From positions 1 through 22,713 of IMG/VR virus record IMGVR_UViG_3300027749_000499: a stretch of 22,713 nt of DNA; one strand, given 5' to 3'. The position numbers and the translations under genes were made by a program. Shown here piece by piece: positions 3,481 through 16,427 of this stretch; within the stretch, counting starts at the first letter, position 1, and each line of letters begins with the position of its first letter. This DNA comes from a virus. Under the pieces are notes generated by a model. The model saw nothing but the letters and a program-made list of their open reading frames with translations. It was not told where the DNA came from and did not search any database.

Positions 3481-3687
3481 ATGCAAAGCTTGCACCTAAT
3501 ATTAAGTCATACCGTTTCTGGAGAGGTCAGGGTTGAGTATATCGGCCCTGACCGCTCCGCAGCGGCACAAGTTTACAGTTCAAATATTGAAGGAGCAGTG
3601 CTAGTGGAATACTTTCCGTTTTTGCAAGTTAGCCAAAGACGCAAAATAGCTGTTCCTTTTGTTGCCAAGAAATCCAAAGACAAATGA
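3481..3687 (+). CDS. Small unknown protein between capsid and connector genes
   Basis: A 68-residue protein that I do not recognise. It alternates hydrophobic and polar residues (LHLILSHTVSGEVRVEYIG, then GAVLVEYFPFLQV), suggesting a small beta-rich fold, and ends in a Lys-rich tail (AKKSKDK). It begins 6 bases after the capsid stop and its own TGA overlaps the next ATG (ATGA), so it is embedded in the head operon and likely translated with it. Position would suit a small head or head-tail joining protein, but nothing in the sequence shows this directly. Confidence 0.55.
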   Translation: MQSLHLILSHTVSGEVRVEYIGPDRSAAAQVYSSNIEGAVLVEYFPFLQVSQRRKIAVPFVAKKSKDK

Positions 3688-5003: not shown

Positions 5004-5435
5004 ATGAAAGTAGGAACAATTATTAGGTTTGTTAAAGACAACGAAGATCCAGTTAAATCGCCAAATACCGACATGGTAATGGCGTGGCGCACAATTGGTG
5101 GCAAGTTTCACGAACCTTGCAACATTGAGCGGGTAGAAGAAAACGGAAAGCAATATTGCACTTGGTTCATTGACGACACTGAACCCGTGGATGTTGCCGG
5201 AGAAAAGATGCACTGGAAAGACTTTGAGAAAAAGTGGAAATCAGTCGAATGGTGCACTGAAGCCGGATTCCATCCCATTGCAGTAATGAGGGCATTTAGG
5301 GATAATGCTCGTGATGGCAAGCGGCAAGCCAAAGACATTGCAGTTGGGTTGCGCGTCAGAAAGGGTAATCAGCAAATTGTAGTGTATGCCGATTCTCCAG
5401 AATGGCTGAAAAAAGAGTTAGCAAGATTTGTCTAA
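5004..5435 (+). CDS. Unknown protein in the tail-shaft operon
   Basis: A 143-residue soluble protein that I do not recognise. It is rich in Trp (MAWRTIGG, CTWFIDD, MHWKDFEKKWKSVEWC) and charged residues, with no membrane segment. A helix around 90-110 (AVMRAFRDNARDGKRQAKDIA) separates an N-terminal part from a short C-terminal strand-helix unit. It starts 9 bases after the upstream stop in an A-rich context (AAGTAAAAAATATG), and its stop lies only 1 base before the ATG of the tail chaperone, so the two are likely coupled. Position argues for a tail role, but an unrelated passenger gene is possible. Confidence 0.55.
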   Translation: MKVGTIIRFVKDNEDPVKSPNTDMVMAWRTIGGKFHEPCNIERVEENGKQYCTWFIDDTEPVDVAGEKMHWKDFEKKWKSVEWCTEAGFHPIAVMRAFRDNARDGKRQAKDIAVGLRVRKGNQQIVVYADSPEWLKKELARFV

Positions 5436-5436
5436 T

Positions 5437-5784
5437 ATGAGTGCATTTCAATTATCTAACGAAACGGTGGCAGGTTTTGAACTAAGACCGTGGACATTAA
5501 CTACTCAAACAGCAATTGAATTTCTTTCTGACAAACAATTGACGGATGTAGAACAAGCAATTGCAATGGTGTATATTCAAGGCGAAACACCCAAAAGCAT
5601 TCGACAGTCTATTCAAGACGAAACGCTTTTAGATAAAATTAAAGATTTTATTGACCATTTTCCGCTATATAATGTTTTGGCCATTTCGGGGTGGTGTAAA
5701 CGGCAGATGGATTTGATTAACGTCAATCGAGTTGAAGTTTTGCCAAGAAGTGAACCAGATCCAAAAACACCCCCAAACTTGTAG
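5437..5784 (+). CDS. Tail assembly chaperone, short form (gpG-like)
   Basis: A 115-residue helical protein located just before the tape-measure region, where siphophages encode the tail assembly chaperone that coats the tape measure during tail building. I place the start at ATG 5437, 1 base after the upstream TAA, rather than at TTG 5428 which would overlap that gene. The last codons read ...CCC-CCA-AAC-TTG-TAG: the CCCAAAC run at 5772-5778 is a canonical -1 slippery heptamer in the correct phase, followed by a stem-loop. Ribosomes that do not slip make this G form; a fraction continues into the GT form. Helices (TDVEQAIAMVYIQG, ETLLDKIKDFIDHFPLYNVLAISGWCKRQMD) fit the family. Confidence 0.85.
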   Translation: MSAFQLSNETVAGFELRPWTLTTQTAIEFLSDKQLTDVEQAIAMVYIQGETPKSIRQSIQDETLLDKIKDFIDHFPLYNVLAISGWCKRQMDLINVNRVEVLPRSEPDPKTPPNL

Positions 5785-6026
5785 GGCCAGGATGGGAAGA
5801 AAGTTTAGTTTTCATTCTGGCCAAAAATTACCATTTTTCAGAACAATTTATATTTGATGAACTCCCTTTTGCTCGGGCATTAAAATATTATCACGCCGCA
5901 ATCTGGGCAGAAGGCGCGTGGACAATTAAACCTGCTCCCAAAGAAAAGATTGCTGAAGTTGAAAGCTTGCTTCAAAATCTAACTCAAAAATATCATGCCG
6001 AAAGTTCTGACGACATTGAGTTTTGA
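5437..6026 (+). CDS. Tail assembly chaperone, -1 frameshift fusion (gpGT-like)
   Basis: Predicted 196-residue product: codons 5437-5778, slip back one base on C-CCA-AAC, then codons 5778-6023 and TGA at 6024-6026. The -1 frame has no start of its own near the junction, yet it encodes a sensible T domain: after the junction it reads L-V-G-P-G-W-E-E-S-L-V-F-I-L-A-K-N-Y-H and then an 'FSEQFIFDELPFARALKYYHA' stretch, the 'W..l..Y..s...i..LPl' pattern of T extensions. It explains the otherwise empty 5785-5994. In lambda, GT recruits the tube protein to the tape measure; the same is inferred here. The last 32 bases overlap the next gene. Confidence 0.85.
5772..5822 (+). other. Programmed -1 ribosomal frameshift signal
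   Basis: Slippery heptamer CCCAAAC at 5772-5778, phased C CCA AAC in the zero frame. A 6-base spacer (5779-5784) contains the zero-frame TAG. A hairpin follows: 5785-5798 pairs with 5809-5822 over 14 consecutive positions (11 Watson-Crick, 3 G-U at 5791/5816, 5795/5812 and 5796/5811), leaving a 10-base loop at 5799-5808. The lower six pairs, GGCCAG with CTGGCC, are perfect. Heptamer, spacer and stem together are the standard arrangement for -1 frameshifting. Confidence 0.88.
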
Positions 6027-6726
6027 TGAAGCATTAAAGCAATTTGATGCGGCTTTAAAAAAACAATTGGCAACCACAAAGAAAATGCCCATAGAAGTGG
6101 TTCGCACGGCATTTAGAGGGGTTATGCGTCGAGTCTTTACGTTTACACCGCCCATGTCTAATAAGGCACCTAGCTTTATGCAGGGACGCAAAGCCGGACA
6201 GATTCAGATTCAGAAAGACATGAGAAAGATGTTCCGTCCAATTCCCAAAAAGTATCGGGATTGGACAAGCACAAAAAAAGGACGGCAGGGATTGATTAAC
6301 TTTTTTGGCCCAGACGCAACTCCCGGAAAGCTCAATGCTGGGATTGATTATTTTGTTAAGCTGCACAAAACCAATAGAGGGCTCAATAAGCGCATTGTTG
6401 GAAAGCCTCGTGTGCCTATTTGGGAATCAACGTACAAGAATGTATTCACCGAGCTTGTAAAATGGCAAGGATGGGTTCCTAGTGGCTGGATAAAGGGAGC
6501 ACAAGAGGCAGGCGTAAATCCTCCGGCATGGGTTAGTGGCAAAGCTGGCCCCGGTTCGATGGTTAAGACGTTGACTGATGCCAAAGCAATTTTTAAGGTG
6601 ATAAACGACACCAAGCACGAAGATTACAATCGAATTCAATTCAATATAAACTATGCTATTATTCAACAAGCAAATGCCATGAATCGAGCATTTGCCGATT
6701 ATCTAAAGAAGATGAAACTAGGGTAG
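5995..6726 (+). CDS. Unknown basic protein between tail chaperone and tape measure
   Basis: A 243-residue, Lys/Arg-rich soluble protein that I do not recognise as a named family. The N-terminus is helical (SFDEALKQFDAALKKQLA). A region at about 40-110 is rich in basic and aromatic residues (VMRRVFTFTPPMS, MRKMFRPIPKKYRDW). The C-terminus holds a helix (QFNINYAIIQQANAMNRAFADYLKKMK). The segment 'VFTFTPPMS..AP' and a terminal 'AMNRAFADY' helix recall minor tail proteins of HK97-gp10 style, in which a tail-completion subunit has such features, but placement after the chaperone is unusual for that. It starts inside the GT reading frame (32-base overlap), so it is co-translated with the chaperone. 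Confidence 0.6.
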   Translation: MPKVLTTLSFDEALKQFDAALKKQLATTKKMPIEVVRTAFRGVMRRVFTFTPPMSNKAPSFMQGRKAGQIQIQKDMRKMFRPIPKKYRDWTSTKKGRQGLINFFGPDATPGKLNAGIDYFVKLHKTNRGLNKRIVGKPRVPIWESTYKNVFTELVKWQGWVPSGWIKGAQEAGVNPPAWVSGKAGPGSMVKTLTDAKAIFKVINDTKHEDYNRIQFNINYAIIQQANAMNRAFADYLKKMKLG

Positions 6727-8177: not shown

Positions 8178-8825
8178 ATGCCAGAAGTCATCAGCAAAAT
8201 CGAACGGATACAAGATCCGCAAAAGATCATCACGCACGTTGTTACTCGACAAAGCACCGAGCGGATGGAACCTGCGGCTCCAGATAATCCCAGATCTTAC
8301 CGGCAAGAACACTTTCAAGGCATCTTTACACTTACAGAAGAATACCTCGACGCATCGCAGCAAGCTTGGCAAGCACAGGTTGATGGCACAGTAAACAGTG
8401 AGCCTTTGGAAACTCATATCATGTTCAAAAACGTGCCGGCAGACATAAAAACAAATTGGCTTAAATGGAAAACAGGTCAAGGCACAACTCCAGTAAACTG
8501 GGATCCCAACAAAACTGGAAATGAAATCTTTAGCGTGTTTTACGAGATGTATAGCTCTGGATTTGTAGTATACAATGCACCAAGAATTGTGCTTAGAGCA
8601 ACTGGCGTTGAAAATGGGCCACCAGATCAATATGGCATGGGATTGATAAATGAAGATTACAATAATAAAATCCCAGATATTGGAGGAAGGGTGCCTGACA
8701 ATGTTTCGTTTTTGCTTACAGCAGCACGGGGGAGTCAAGAAGGAGAACTCTGGAGAAACACTTATGAATGGCTAGCCAGTGCAATAAACGGGCAAGGATG
8801 GGATACTGACATTTACCAACAATAA
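8178..8825 (+). CDS. Distal-tail candidate, first of a tandem paralogous pair
   Basis: A 215-residue soluble protein immediately after the tape measure, the slot for distal tail or baseplate proteins. It is clearly related to the next gene: shared motifs in the same order are EPLETH (residues 74-79), NWLKWKTGQ, PVNWDP, RIVLRATGVE with PP following, and near the C-terminus ARGSQEG, LWRNTYEWL and NGQGW. The many Trp, Gly and Asn residues suggest a beta-rich structural protein. I cannot name the family. The start is 1 base after the tape-measure stop, in 'CAATAATATG', without a Shine-Dalgarno site. Confidence 0.65.
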   Translation: MPEVISKIERIQDPQKIITHVVTRQSTERMEPAAPDNPRSYRQEHFQGIFTLTEEYLDASQQAWQAQVDGTVNSEPLETHIMFKNVPADIKTNWLKWKTGQGTTPVNWDPNKTGNEIFSVFYEMYSSGFVVYNAPRIVLRATGVENGPPDQYGMGLINEDYNNKIPDIGGRVPDNVSFLLTAARGSQEGELWRNTYEWLASAINGQGWDTDIYQQ

Positions 8826-8826
8826 T

Positions 8827-9465
8827 ATGCCACCTATTATTACTAGAGTTGAAGAAGCTGTAGATGTACAAAAGGTTCTTACTACTACTACCACATATCA
8901 GGCTGTAACTGAAATTACACCTAACACTAATGTAAAATCATATCGTCTTGAACAAAACGATACTGTTTGGACTTATGTCGAAGAAGAAGTAAGCAAAGAT
9001 CAACAAGTTTATCAAGGCGGCGTAGATGGTTCGGTTTCAAATGATCCTCTTGAAACGCATAATCTTTTTAAAGACGTTGCTCAAAAAGTAAAATCAAATT
9101 GGCTTAAATGGAAAGCTGGACAAGCTACTGATCCTGTAAATTGGAATCCTTCAACTGAAACTGATGCACAATTTGTTCTTTTTTACGCTAAATACATTAA
9201 AGGATTTGAAACATTTTATTCTTCAAGAATTGTCCTTAGAACTACAGCATTAGAAGATAAACCACCAAGCCAAGCTAATCTGGGTAAAATAGAAAATAGA
9301 GGAGTAGAAGCATTGGGCATTACGCCTCCAGCCGGAGTTAATTTTATATTATCAGCAGCTCGTGGAAACCAAGAAGGTGCACTTTGGCGCAATAGTTACG
9401 AATGGCTAGGTAGTGCAGCAAATGGCCAAGGCTGGAACCCATTGGTTTATAATCCTGAAGCCTAA
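8827..9465 (+). CDS. Distal-tail candidate, second of a tandem paralogous pair
   Basis: A 212-residue paralogue of the gene before it. It keeps DPLETH, NWLKWKAGQ, PVNWNP, RIVLRTTALE, ARGNQEG, LWRNSYEWL and NGQGW at matching positions, while the first 60 residues and the segment before ARGNQEG differ more. Codon use is more AT-rich than in the first copy, so the pair is not a fresh duplication. Two related subunits in tandem could make a hetero-ring in the baseplate or two stacked rings; this is inference. The start is 1 base after the preceding TAA. Confidence 0.65.
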   Translation: MPPIITRVEEAVDVQKVLTTTTTYQAVTEITPNTNVKSYRLEQNDTVWTYVEEEVSKDQQVYQGGVDGSVSNDPLETHNLFKDVAQKVKSNWLKWKAGQATDPVNWNPSTETDAQFVLFYAKYIKGFETFYSSRIVLRTTALEDKPPSQANLGKIENRGVEALGITPPAGVNFILSAARGNQEGALWRNSYEWLGSAANGQGWNPLVYNPEA

Positions 9466-10021: not shown

Positions 10022-11404
10022 ATGAGTGCGCAAAACTGTCAGGCGCGGTTGTTGTTTTCCAACTTTAGTGTAAAAATTGATTACGGGTTTAGTTGTGAAT
10101 ATAATGCTTCACCTTATGTATTAAAAGAATCATTAACCGGAATATGGCAACAAGATTTGTTTGTCAATTTTACTAAACGAGAGTTAAGTTGTCCTAGTTT
10201 ATTGTTATATAAAAAAGGAAAATTATATCAACAAAAAAAAGGATGGGCGCATAAAAAAATAGACAGCCCAATTGTAAGAAACATGAATGCTGGCTATCCA
10301 TTTCCAGCATTTAATTCTGGTATTGGATATAATTATCCAGCAAGTTATTTTGCAGATCAAAAATATCCAAATCAAGAAGGATACACTCAAGAATCCGTTC
10401 CATTATTTGAAAATTTTAGGACTCGGCAAGAATTTATTCCATTATTTAATAATCAAGATTCAAGTGTTGGGCGAAATGGACCATTTTATTATAAAATCAC
10501 TGATCCGGCGGATCCATTAAATGGACATCCACCAAATTGGCTTAAAAATTTAGATGATCCAGAAAAAAAATATATTTTTGCGCTTACTCCAAATAACACT
10601 GTTTTTGATACAAAAGAAGATTACACAAATTGGCTAGCAACATTTTTAGAAAATTTAAATTCGCCAGTTTATTATCCGGGCGCACCAAACGATCCCAAGC
10701 CTGATGTAACTCCAAGAAAAATTCCAACATTGTTTAAAAACAAATCAGATTGGATGAATTTTTTAAACAATGCTGGAGGAAAAGGGGTAGCTTGTGGCGG
10801 TGTAGCACAATGCGGAGTTGATTATAGATTATATAATACACAAGAGCAAGGGACTTTAGGATATTCGGGATCAATTGCTGAAACAGAAGGCGACGCTATA
10901 GAAGGCACTGCAATTTATAAAGACATACCAACTATTTTATCATTTGTTTCAGGACTTGGAAGAATTGGAAAAACAAATGATGATTTATTAACTGAAATTG
11001 ACAAAAACGGAAACATTACATTTCAAACAACTGCATCTGACAGCGATGTTTATCAAAATATTTCAATTGGATTTGCAAAATTTTTTAATAAAAAACAAAA
11101 AGGATGTATTCAATTTAAAAACGCACTTAAAAAAAATTCTGATTTTATTAATTCCTATTACAATTTAACTGATATACAGTTAACTGATAGTAGAAATTTT
11201 TATGACAAATCTGAAAATTTTGAAGATGTTTTTGGGTTTGCTTACCAGTTTTGCGGAGCAGCAGGAGTTGTGCAAGAATTTAAAACGACGCTTTCTAGTG
11301 AAACTGATAACATGTTAAGATTTGAACGCAGTGGAAATTTTCAACAAGATGAAATTAAAGTAAATTTACTTATTCGTTACACACTTGAATGGACCGACCT
11401 ATGA
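10022..11404 (+). CDS. Large AT-rich unknown tail-region protein
   Basis: A 460-residue protein that I do not recognise. It is Asn-, Phe-, Tyr- and Lys-rich and markedly AT-rich compared with the genes around it. The first 100 residues are a probable beta unit (LLFSNFSVKIDYGFSC), the middle has many Asn-Pro and Asp-Pro turns (DPADPLNGHPPNW, YYPGAPNDPKPD), and the end is beta-rich (QDEIKVNLLIRYTLEWTDL). There is no signal peptide or membrane segment. In order and size it takes the place of a tail-tip or central-fibre protein. Its TGA overlaps the next ATG. The unusual composition suggests a different origin from its neighbours. Confidence 0.6.
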   Translation: MSAQNCQARLLFSNFSVKIDYGFSCEYNASPYVLKESLTGIWQQDLFVNFTKRELSCPSLLLYKKGKLYQQKKGWAHKKIDSPIVRNMNAGYPFPAFNSGIGYNYPASYFADQKYPNQEGYTQESVPLFENFRTRQEFIPLFNNQDSSVGRNGPFYYKITDPADPLNGHPPNWLKNLDDPEKKYIFALTPNNTVFDTKEDYTNWLATFLENLNSPVYYPGAPNDPKPDVTPRKIPTLFKNKSDWMNFLNNAGGKGVACGGVAQCGVDYRLYNTQEQGTLGYSGSIAETEGDAIEGTAIYKDIPTILSFVSGLGRIGKTNDDLLTEIDKNGNITFQTTASDSDVYQNISIGFAKFFNKKQKGCIQFKNALKKNSDFINSYYNLTDIQLTDSRNFYDKSENFEDVFGFAYQFCGAAGVVQEFKTTLSSETDNMLRFERSGNFQQDEIKVNLLIRYTLEWTDL

Positions 11405-12138: not shown

Positions 12139-12175
12139 TTACTCATGAGCAATCAAATCGTTCCAATCGTCCCGC
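12127..12175 (+). repeat. Duplicated gene boundary, copy 1
   Basis: GGCACTTACTAA at 12127-12138 (end of the small Gly-rich gene) is followed by the start of the first fibre gene. The same 12 bases and a closely similar next-gene start (M-S-N-x-I-V-P-x-V-P, sharing ATCGTTCCA) recur at the second boundary. It suggests that the fibre gene was duplicated as a unit. Confidence 0.55.
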
Positions 12176-13101
12176 GTATTAACGCGGCTCCCCTTTCCAC
12201 CGCAGCACCAACGGCCTTGACGGGCATGACGTTGGGCGAAATTGCCATCAACACCGCTACGGGGCGGTTATTTGTTCAAGGCAACGGTGCGACTCCCGTA
12301 GACGTAACCGCTGGCAGCGTGCAGGCGTCGCAGCTAACGACAATTGCGACCGCTAACGGCGTGCCGCAGCTTACTGGCGCGGGGCTGATTAGCTCTGCGC
12401 AGATTGGAACGTTGGCCACGTCGCAGATCCCCGGGCTAACGCAGTCCGCTGTTGCCGGCGGAATCCCGCAGCTTGACGGCTCGGGCTACATCGCTCTTGC
12501 GCAGTTGCCTCCAAGCGTAATTGGCCAACTGCACTACAAGGGCGCATGGACGGTTAACAGTTCGCCTGTGATCGCGTCTGGCGGCGTCGTAGGCGCTGGC
12601 ACGGCTAATACTGGCGATTACTACGTTGCAGCCAACACAGCGACTGTCGGCACTGCCATCGACGGCAAGACCTCGTTTATTGCTGGGGACGTATTGGCTT
12701 TTAACGGTAGCACTTGGGACAAGATCAATGGTGCGACAGCAGAGGTAATTTCCGTAAATTCCATTGGCCCTGTAAATGGTAATATTAGTTTAACGGCTGC
12801 AAATGTGGGAGCGATTGCTACCAGCCAGCTAGGCGCACTCAATGGCGTTGCAACGCTCAATGGTGCAGGCGCGTTGACCAGCTCGCAGTTGCCAGTGGCA
12901 ACCACCGCGCAGTTGGGCGCAATTAGCGTTGGGGCTAACCTCGCGATTGACGGCGCAGGCGTGCTGTCAGCTATCCAGGGCACGTACACGCTGCCAGCGG
13001 CAACGACCTCGCAACTTGGCGGCATCAAGGTTGGCGCTGGCTTGGCAATCGACGGTTCTGGCATTCTCGCAATCGATACGATCACAGGCGGCACTTACTA
13101 A
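12145..13101 (+). CDS. Tail fibre protein, first of two with a shared N-terminus
   Basis: A 318-residue fibre. The N-terminal module (MSNQIVPIVPRINA, then LGEIAINTATGRLFVQG) is shared with the next gene. The body is built of low-complexity beta repeats: QLTGAGLISSAQIG, QLDGSGYIALAQLP and then two near-copies, 'ATTAQLGAISVGANLAIDG' and 'ATTSQLGGIKVGAGLAIDG', near the C-terminus. Such repeats form trimeric fibre shafts. It has no visible intramolecular chaperone. The gene is GC-rich, unlike the AT-rich 10022 gene. It is probably a side fibre; the binding target cannot be read from sequence. Confidence 0.75.
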   Translation: MSNQIVPIVPRINAAPLSTAAPTALTGMTLGEIAINTATGRLFVQGNGATPVDVTAGSVQASQLTTIATANGVPQLTGAGLISSAQIGTLATSQIPGLTQSAVAGGIPQLDGSGYIALAQLPPSVIGQLHYKGAWTVNSSPVIASGGVVGAGTANTGDYYVAANTATVGTAIDGKTSFIAGDVLAFNGSTWDKINGATAEVISVNSIGPVNGNISLTAANVGAIATSQLGALNGVATLNGAGALTSSQLPVATTAQLGAISVGANLAIDGAGVLSAIQGTYTLPAATTSQLGGIKVGAGLAIDGSGILAIDTITGGTY

Positions 13102-13137
13102 ACCATGTCCAACGCAATCGTTCCAGTCGTTCCCAAG
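13090..13137 (+). repeat. Duplicated gene boundary, copy 2
   Basis: GGCACTTACTAA at 13090-13101 closes the first fibre gene, and the following start repeats the M-S-N-x-I-V-P-V-V-P leader of the preceding fibre. It matches copy 1 in stop region and in gene start, with the gene bodies having diverged. Confidence 0.55.
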
Positions 13138-14136
13138 CGCAACGCCGTAACGGGCGCGGGTTATCCTACCTCGCTCACATTGGGCGAGTTAGCAGTTAAC
13201 ACCACTACGGGCAACGTCTATCTAGGCGCAGACCCCGGCGTGGTGCGCATCGGCATCCCTGTTGCGGCGGGGACGACACTCAACCTTGGCACGGGCGACG
13301 GCTCGACTGTTGCGTTTGCGATCACGGGCGGCACAGGCACGGACGCAGGCGGGTATCTCGTGAGCGTTGGCGGCATTGATCAGCCAAGCGGGTGGACGGT
13401 TGCAGGCACGACGTTGACGTTTAGCGAGGCACCGCCAGCGGGCGCGTCTGTCAGCGTTCGGGCGATACTCAAGGGCGAGGGCGGCGGCGGTGGCGGCACT
13501 GACATCGGCGGGCGTGCGTGGTCGGCTGGCGCGACATACACCGAGGGCGATCTCGTAGCAACTAGCCAGCGCGAGACTTGGATTTGCATCCAAAACGCAA
13601 ACACGGGCAACGATCCGGCAACATCGCCGACGTGGTGGGCGCCTCAGCCAGCGGACGCGGTATCTTTGCAGTTGCGGGCGGTGACATCAGATCCTCCAAG
13701 TGACAGACAAGCAATAGCTTGGGATGCAACCAATAATGTGTGGAAGCCTACAACATTATTGCAAATTGGAACTGAAGGCCTTGGCGGTTATCCTGTTTCA
13801 AGTGGTATAAAAATTGGAAACAATACAGTTTCACACGCTTTGGCTATTGGAGAAGCGGCATACGCAAATCCTTATCAAAGTAATAATGGTTCAGGAGATA
13901 TTGCTATAGGTCAAAATGCTATAGCGTCTTACAATTCTTCAATCGCTATTGGAGCTTCTGCTCAAGCTTTGCAAGGCGGGATTGCCATTGGGGCAGGAGC
14001 CTCTAGTGATAATGGAATGTTAGCATTAAGTGCAACGCTTCTTCAAAGTGGAGTTCCAAATGATCCATTAACGCCATCTAGTTGGCTGTTAATAAAAATC
14101 AATGGAAGTACCTATAGAATTCCTCTTTACGTTTAA
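13105..14136 (+). CDS. Tail fibre protein with YadA-head-like repeats; composition break inside
   Basis: A 343-residue fibre. Its start ([32 protein letters not shown]) parallels the preceding gene. A Gly-rich stretch near 127-135 ([13 protein letters not shown]) is followed by '[25 protein letters not shown]', a short carbohydrate-module-like motif. From about residue 193 the DNA turns suddenly AT-rich, and the C-terminal part holds repeats [20 protein letters not shown] and [10 protein letters not shown], which match the left-handed roll repeats of YadA-type trimeric adhesin heads. This suggests a receptor-contacting tip, and that the tip was exchanged by recombination. Confidence 0.75.
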
Positions 14137-14138
14137 TT

Positions 14139-16427
14139 ATGTCCCTCACAAAACCAACAGGAGCAATGCTCAACGCTGGCAGTACGTCAGCACCGCAGGC
14201 ACTTGGCGCCGCAGCGGCTGGTACGTCGCAGAGCTACTCCCGCGCTGACCACGTTCACGCCATGCCATCGGCGGGCGACGTTGGCGCGATCCCAACGAGT
14301 CAGCTTTCGTCATTGGCATCACTAACAGGCGGGCACTTGACGACCTCGCAGACGCCTGCACTCGGCGGCGACATAACGCTTGCGGCTGGCGCAGTATCAG
14401 CGCAAGTCGTGGCACTCCAAGGCTCGGCTATCGCAGCGACAACGCCAGCAAGTGGGCAGGTACTCGCATGGAACGGTACGCAATGGGCACCAGCAACGGC
14501 GTCCACGGGCGGCGGCGGTGGGGCAAATGGGCTAACGTATTATTTGAGGCAGGACATAGCCGCAGATGCACCAACGACTAATTTGCCCGGGACGCCCAAG
14601 CAACTGGGGCGCACTGGCTCGGCGTCGGCTACCAGCCTCACAAGTGGCACTCTCACAAGCGGAACATGGACGCTTCTGGGCGGGTACGTCAGCGAGTCAA
14701 CTCCCATTGATCCAGACGTGACGCAGATTCCGGCCGGCCTGTGGGATTTTAACCTGTGGGCTTTAGGCACGGCTAACACGAACTCGCCAACAGTAATCCG
14801 CGCTAAGGTTTACGTGTACAATGGCGCAGATGCTCCGACGTTGATCGGCACCTCTGGCGAGCAGATTATTAACAACGTCTCGGCGCAATTTTCGCTTTCG
14901 GTTTTGATCTCGCAAACGACGATTGCGCTAACGGATCGGATCTACATTGCAATCGAGGTGAAAGCCTCCGCAAACAATCACACAGCGACGCTACAATTTG
15001 GCGATGGTCAGCCCAGTCACGTCCACACTTCACTGCCGCTTGTTGGCGGCACCGGGCTTTGGAAAAACTCCAGCGGGGTTTTGCAGTCGCCTGCAAGCCT
15101 GTTAGTTGACGCTGACGTTGACGCAGCGGCTGGTATTGCGTTGAGCAAAATTGCAGGGGCGGCAAGCACCGCACAGGTTGAGGCAATCACGCCCGCAAGC
15201 ATTGGCGCATTGTCTACCGCTCAAGCTGTAACAATAGCGCAAGGCGGCACTGGCGCGATTGACGCAGGCACTGCGTTGTTAAATCTTGGAGTGCAGCTGC
15301 ATGCTGTTACTGTCCGCGCCTCGAGCAATCAGTCGCCGAGTACGCTTACAGGCCCATACGCAGGCACTTGGACAGGTAATACGCTTACGCTCACAACAGG
15401 CACGACCAGCCTATTAGCATCGGGTATGTGTTTCGGCACCACTGGCTTAACTGGGGTTGCAATTGTTAGCGTACTAAACAGCACGCAGGTAAGTTTATCA
15501 AACTCAACAACGACTCAGGCAACGCCTACAGCTTTAACGGTTTATAACAACACGGCAACGCAGTTTACGCTGGGCGTGACAGGAGTTTACGTCCTTGAAA
15601 ATTACACCGTAAATGCAGGGGACAGTGTGGTTTTTTCCAACCAAACCAGCACACTTATGACTGGGCCATGGGTTTGCACGGTTGCGGGGGCAGTAGGAGT
15701 TGCCCCTGTATTTCAGCGCCCATCTTGGTTTACAGGAACAGCATCCGCAGTTTACCTCAACGTGCTTCGTGGAAGTTCTTCGCAGGGATCTATTTTTGCA
15801 ATTTATCCGCTGACTGCATCAGCGGTTACAGACATCGTTGTTGGGCAGACTCCGTTAAGCTCCTCCTTAATTTTTGGTCGAGGAAATAACGCGGTGTTAG
15901 GTGGCAATACTTTTACGGGAAAAAACACATTTCAAGCAGGATCTACAGGATCAGGCGCAGTGCCTTTTGCTTTTCAAGCCGGTGTTTTAATGACCATACC
16001 GCAGGCACATAGCGTGGAGTGGGATGGGACCAACGAGTACGTTACAACGGGCGCAACATTTGCCGGATCAATTGCCACAACGGTTTTAACCGTAACGGGC
16101 ACGCCAACGGGCGTCATCCAAGTTGGCATGCTTATCAGCGGCACTGGCGTTACCGCAGGCACGACTATCACCGCGCTAGGCACAGGCACGGGCGGCACAG
16201 GAACCTACACAGTTTCAGTGTCGCAAACCGTTACGGCGACAACCATTACCGCTGCAATGCGCTGCATCAAAGCCACATTTATCAACGGCGCGGCTGGCGG
16301 CACAGGCGCAGTGCCCGCAACGGCAACGGCTGTAGGACGCCCAGGGCAAATGGCGTTTGATGCGAGCTTTATGTACATCTGCACGGCCAACAACACTTGG
16401 AAAAAAACGGCACTGATTGCGGTTTAA
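14139..16427 (+). CDS. Large tail fibre / receptor-binding protein
   Basis: A 762-residue multi-domain fibre. From the N-terminus: an '[21 protein letters not shown]' anchor module; an NGTQWAPA module near 108-115; a jelly-roll-like domain at about 130-310 ending '[14 protein letters not shown]'; a fibre repeat '[19 protein letters not shown]' near 370-390; a beta-rich central region; '[14 protein letters not shown]' and '[14 protein letters not shown]' near 590-640; and a final '[28 protein letters not shown]' domain. These modules are widespread in phage fibres. A Gly/Thr-rich cassette interrupts the C-terminal domain. It starts 2 bases after the previous stop and is the largest gene in the window. 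Confidence 0.8.

Follow-up and report, generated by a model that had tools for sequence, protein, structure and literature searches.

The window analysed here, a stretch of 22,713 nucleotides from an uncultured tailed phage (IMG/VR virus record IMGVR_UViG_3300027749_000499, positions 1 to 22,713), carries genes in the order portal (Pfam Phage_portal_2), S49 protease, major head protein, small tail genes, G, G-T, an ORF of 243 amino acids and tape measure (Table 1). The G and G-T pair lies between the tail-tube and tape measure genes, the tail-tube gene being assigned by position only. An in-frame TTG at 5428 precedes the start of G, and the zero-frame codons at its end are CCC CCA AAC TTG TAG. 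The -1 frame is open from 5754 up to its TGA, and reading the ORFs bears out the proposal, made from the sequence in the original prediction, of a frame open to 6026 and a G-T fusion of 196 residues. The predicted peptide across the fusion junction is TPPKLVGPGWEESLVF, or PPN-LVGPGW by the slip intermediate. No tRNA genes were detected.

Table 1. Features at the G/T locus (positions in the window)
Feature	Position	Strand	Details
G-like ORF, 115 aa, zero-frame product	5437..5784	+	ATG 5437; stop TAG 5782-5784; homologues in ~65 contigs
T-like extension, -1 frame (P K L V G P G W ...)	5772..6026	+	stop TGA 6024-6026; T homologues; codon-position bias
Slippery heptamer CCCAAAC	5772..5778	+	phased C CCA AAC; P-site Pro CCA, A-site Asn AAC
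Spacer TTGTAG, 6 nt, with zero-frame stop	5779..5784	+	read from sequence
Stimulatory hairpin, 5' arm	5785..5798	+	fold and covariation
Hairpin loop, 10 nt	5799..5808	+	fold
Stimulatory hairpin, 3' arm	5809..5822	+	fold and covariation
243-aa ORF between T and tape measure gene	5995..6726	+	overlaps T end by 32 nt; conserved in relatives, ~25% identity
Tape measure protein, 481 aa	6731..8176	+	phrog_13674, E 0.0023 (weak)

The heptamer, its phase, the 6-base spacer and the coordinates of stem and loop had been predicted exactly to the base, as judged from the sequence and the fold. Folding recovers the local hairpin (5785-5798 with 5809-5822) at -20.4 kcal/mol (z -4.75), a stability that none of 200 dinucleotide shuffles reached, and it agrees with the claim of a 14-bp stem paired throughout under a loop of 10 bases; read from the window sequence, 11 of the pairs are Watson-Crick and 3 are G-U. 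Shuffles that keep the T-frame codons synonymous match this stability in 6 of 400 cases (z -2.5). When a 141-nt stretch around the element is folded whole, the z-score is -0.57, because the flanks dilute the local hairpin, and the local fold is the relevant one. No pseudoknot is evident, complementarity between the loop and downstream sequence reaching at most 4 bp in the window and at most 5 bp in the relative L049, and a search of Rfam gave no match. CCCAAAC is found twice in the whole window, against 3.8 expected, and in-phase XXXYYYZ heptamers (Y being A or T) occur at 0.5% of codons, which corresponds to a P of ~0.045 for the nine-codon overlap. Taken alone, the heptamer is thus weak evidence, and the hairpin is stronger evidence than the heptamer; it is conservation among relatives that settles the case.

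A capsid search of IMG/VR led to five contigs with homologues of both G and T at about 40-50% identity, and profiles made from those five recovered about 65 contigs including the window (subfamily 1). One outlier, L039, led to a second subfamily of 26 contigs, giving in total ~90 IMG/VR contigs with homologues of both halves and 71 distinct elements. Since the G-based search used peptide patterns remote from the heptamer, the set that it produced was not selected for the heptamer. In every contig where both halves are readable, the reading frame of T is -1 to that of G, open, conserved and continuing the first ORF. At the junction, near the end of the first ORF and in the zero-frame phase of a canonical X_XXY_YYZ heptamer, all 71 distinct elements carry XXXAAAC: AAAAAAC in 45, GGGAAAC in 20 and CCCAAAC in 6, the last being shared by the clade to which the window belongs and, in four elements, by the second subfamily. 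The slippery form is therefore kept although its letters change, and the X residues of the T frame, which vary between Lys, Gly and Pro, are still encoded by homotriplets. Turning A AAA AAC into G GGA AAC or C CCA AAC takes coordinated changes, and none of the 71 elements was a broken intermediate. A homologue with a broken heptamer and both frames intact, which would speak against the prediction, was looked for in the ~90 contigs and none was found. Five contigs related by distant capsid similarity only (L015-L019, 40-49%) lack a G/T homologue, and a loose scan of the four that are long enough revealed no equivalent signal.

Within the second subfamily (L039 and L092-L117) the G half is unrecognised by the profile of the first, the hairpin sequence differs, and the tape measure protein of L039 has 847 amino acids.

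In both G and T, the third codon positions of the gene's own frame hold ~48% of the nucleotide differences, which indicates that selection acts on T as a protein in the -1 frame. The original prediction had included the TAG of the spacer in the element. This stop is indeed present in the window spacer, but it is dispensable: it is absent from that place in seven relatives (L028, L031, L053, L055, L066, L085 and L087), and in several relatives the zero frame extends 10-11 codons past the usual stop. The zero-frame stop is therefore not part of the signal, and we reject it as an essential feature.

Downstream RNA structure is common in -1 frameshift signals but not universal in phage tail genes. 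Here it is found in the window and its relatives alike, and the alignment of homologues that was proposed as a check shows a conserved and covarying hairpin next to the invariant heptamer. A long hairpin occupies the same place in all 52 distinct elements of subfamily 1, and a strong hairpin of different sequence stands there in the second subfamily. In 70 of the 71 elements, 4-7 nt separate the heptamer from the first helix of 4 bp or more. Over the 52 sequences the outer helix is paired at 98.9%, against 16-45% with the partners slid. Pair 14-51 is C-G in 35 sequences and G-C in 17; the 3' change (GCC to GCG) is a silent Ala change in the T frame, which makes it likely that this pair is constrained by RNA pairing and not by the protein, and as one clade-level exchange the swap counts as few events. 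Further exchanges are seen at pair 25-40 in the window's clade (U-A, G-C, A-U, G-U) and at pair 27-37 in the other clade (G-C, U-A, C-G), and in the close relative L040 two stem substitutions keep the pairing (A-U to G-U and G-U to A-U). All 52 members are more stable than their synonymous shuffles (z -2.1 to -5.1, median -2.8), in a test that is conservative because codon usage was pooled from the same region. One earlier statement did not hold, namely that the stem is unusually long. With stems of up to 16-18 bp and -25 to -40 kcal/mol, most relatives are longer or more stable, and the window is average or short within its family.

The names G, T and chaperone, which we use by analogy, rest on position, gene order, architecture and the tape-measure matches of relatives, not on a sequence family. 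The identification as a tail chaperone G/GT pair is plausible from gene order and architecture, whereas by sequence no chaperone family is matched. Neither G nor T has an accepted family match in Pfam, PHROG or NCBIfam; a single T homologue weakly matches phrog_978 (tail assembly chaperone, E 0.04). For G, a confident model (pLDDT 84.6) that consists mostly of helices has no match in the PDB and resembles the GT protein of N15 weakly (E 0.31, probability 0.38), while the T model is of low confidence and gave no useful structural match. Tape measure homologues in relatives give stronger PHROG tape-measure matches than the window's own protein, the best being that of L049 to phrog_8462 at E 3.8e-14. 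No relative was found in INPHARED by tblastn, with the G proteins of two members and the capsid and 243-aa proteins as queries, nor when the profiles of G and T were run against GTDB genome contigs.

Taken together, the sequence data make programmed -1 ribosomal frameshifting in a pre-tape-measure tail gene the best explanation, with a probability of about 90%. What we observed directly is the sequence, its frames, the fold, conservation, covariation and coding in both frames, and from these we infer frameshifting in cells, its rate and the chaperone role. The claim of a -1 frameshift that adds a T-type extension to the protein is supported by the heptamer, the hairpin and the -1 position of T in ~90 contigs; the observation is correct and well supported, and very likely represents a real signal, but one of a known kind. 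In the proposed mechanism, ribosomes would translate G from 5437 and, with Pro-tRNA on CCA and Asn-tRNA on AAC, would be stalled by the hairpin that starts 6 nt downstream. A minority would slip back one base onto CCC and AAA and read the T frame to 6026, yielding the 196-aa fusion in addition to the 115-aa G. If the proteins act like gpG and gpGT of lambda, the tape measure protein would be coated by G and the tail-tube protein brought in by the T part, and both would leave before tail completion, following a lambda-like division of labour (PMC5009743).

The codon in the A site deserves attention, as it is AAC in all 71 elements. Heptamers that end in AAC are inefficient in E. coli, where the efficient bacterial ones end in AAA or AAG and where the heptamer is the primary determinant of frameshifting, modulated by the stimulator (PMC4066793). 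Against this background, control of the G:GT ratio by the stem, as put forward in the original prediction, is conjectural. The poor slippage of AAC in E. coli counts against the frameshift reading. AAAAAAC and GGGAAAC are nonetheless probably used by IS elements (PMC4066793). Given this probable use, and the same heptamers predicted in phiCbK, Colossus, KL1 and haloarchaeal viruses, the usage is not new in kind, although its exclusiveness here is mildly notable. The invariant C may be due in part to a Leu (CTN) that is conserved in T, although 29% of the Leu codons in these genes are TTR. For a large uncultured lineage that combines an AAC-only A site with a strong hairpin, we could speculate that the Asn-tRNA or ribosomes of the hosts tolerate the AAC-to-AAA slip better, or that a weak heptamer and a strong hairpin are tuned for a low, precise G:GT ratio, an idea that we hold only tentatively.

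The same products could in principle arise in other ways. RNA polymerase could drop a base in a homopolymeric run, after which ordinary translation would give the fusion; such runs exist, as an A6 run in 45 of the 71 elements and as a C5 run at 5770-5774 in the window. This transcriptional slippage is possible for the A6 members, but the other 26 elements, with GGGAAAC or CCCAAAC, have no long run of A or T, and slippage on a run would work without the X_XXY_YYZ phase and without a covarying hairpin at a set distance. As it leaves the GGG and CCC members and the hairpin unexplained, we consider it improbable as a general account. Even less probable is that T is made separately, with no fusion, by internal initiation or coupled reinitiation near the TAG. 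The overlap geometry does resemble that of coupled genes, and some start codon occurs in the opening stretch of the T frame in 41 of 52 relatives, many of which have GTG or TTG inside T. In the window and in L040, however, the T frame has no ATG, GTG or TTG between the point where it opens and the end of codon 30, which speaks against separate initiation; moreover, the heptamer is where the conserved T motif KL.GPGW starts, ahead of the relatives' start codons, and heptamer and covarying hairpin would be left without explanation.

It is equally hard to sustain that heptamer and hairpin are by-products of a conserved protein whose gene was split by a sequencing error or by decay. The protein does contribute, since the stem falls within the conserved T motif GPxWxES...LAR and synonymous shuffles, which average -12 kcal/mol, retain part of the hairpin stability. 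Yet every member's fold exceeds its synonymous shuffles, the paired exchange is silent on one side, and homotriplets are retained while the residues that they encode differ. The sequencing error or decayed gene is already refuted for the family, as the frame break and the heptamer recur across ~90 contigs. We regard this explanation as very improbable, and programmed ribosomal frameshifting accounts best for the locus.

Conserved frameshifts in tail assembly genes of dsDNA phages were described by Xu, Hendrix and Duda in 2004, as cited in PMC5009743. Like lambda G/GT (G_GGA_AAG) and other such tail frameshifts, the window has an overlapping ORF pair before the tape measure gene, T in the -1 frame and an X_XXY_YYZ heptamer near the end of G, and the fusion, which makes up a few per cent in this class, is proposed to be a minor product here too. 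In contrast to lambda, the window has AAC rather than AAG in the A site and a strong conserved hairpin, and a single gene separates T from its tape measure gene, an arrangement also described for KL1, HK97 and SPP1 (PMC3483164). Comparison with the lambda G and T proteins detected no sequence similarity. Also close are the Caulobacter phages of the phiCbK group (AAAAAAC, with GGGAAAC in Colossus) and the Burkholderia phage KL1 (GGGAAAC), for which XXXAAAC heptamers were predicted in pre-tape-measure genes (PMC3556154, PMC3483164), while the window has CCCAAAC; no protein similarity to these phages was found in the phage collection. Haloarchaeal viruses have a tail frameshift with AAC-type heptamers in two of three cases, in archaeal hosts (PMC5009743), and IS elements with A_AAA_AAC or G_GGA_AAC share the heptamers that are weak in E. 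coli, in transposase rather than tail genes (PMC4066793).

The locus represents an additional putative tail-chaperone family, one that goes unrecognised by standard profile libraries. Its frameshift signal is clear in ~90 contigs, and its T half would escape annotation pipelines. The 71 natural variants, with three heptamers, two hairpin families and the rule XXXAAAC, form a comparative set on the retention of AAC.

Elsewhere in the window, the strongest local RNA hairpin lies at 3511-3565 (-36.5 kcal/mol for 56 nt), just past the capsid gene (stop 3474) and within an ORF at 3481-3687. In L008-L012 a similar hairpin (-25 to -40) follows the capsid stop by 32-36 nt, and the codons EVRVxYxGPDR are conserved too; it is possible that this is an RNA processing, attenuation or stability element. 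After the tape measure gene, the ORFs 8178-8825 and 8827-9465 are tandem paralogues, 45% identical over 213 aa. An inverted repeat at 10723-10777, with 18-nt arms that are 94% complementary and 19 nt apart, lies inside ORF 10022-11404. Finally, three consecutive ORFs at 12145-16427 (318, 343 and 762 aa) have similar Ala/Gly/Thr-rich starts and repeats such as GAIATSQL, and probably encode tail-fibre-like proteins.
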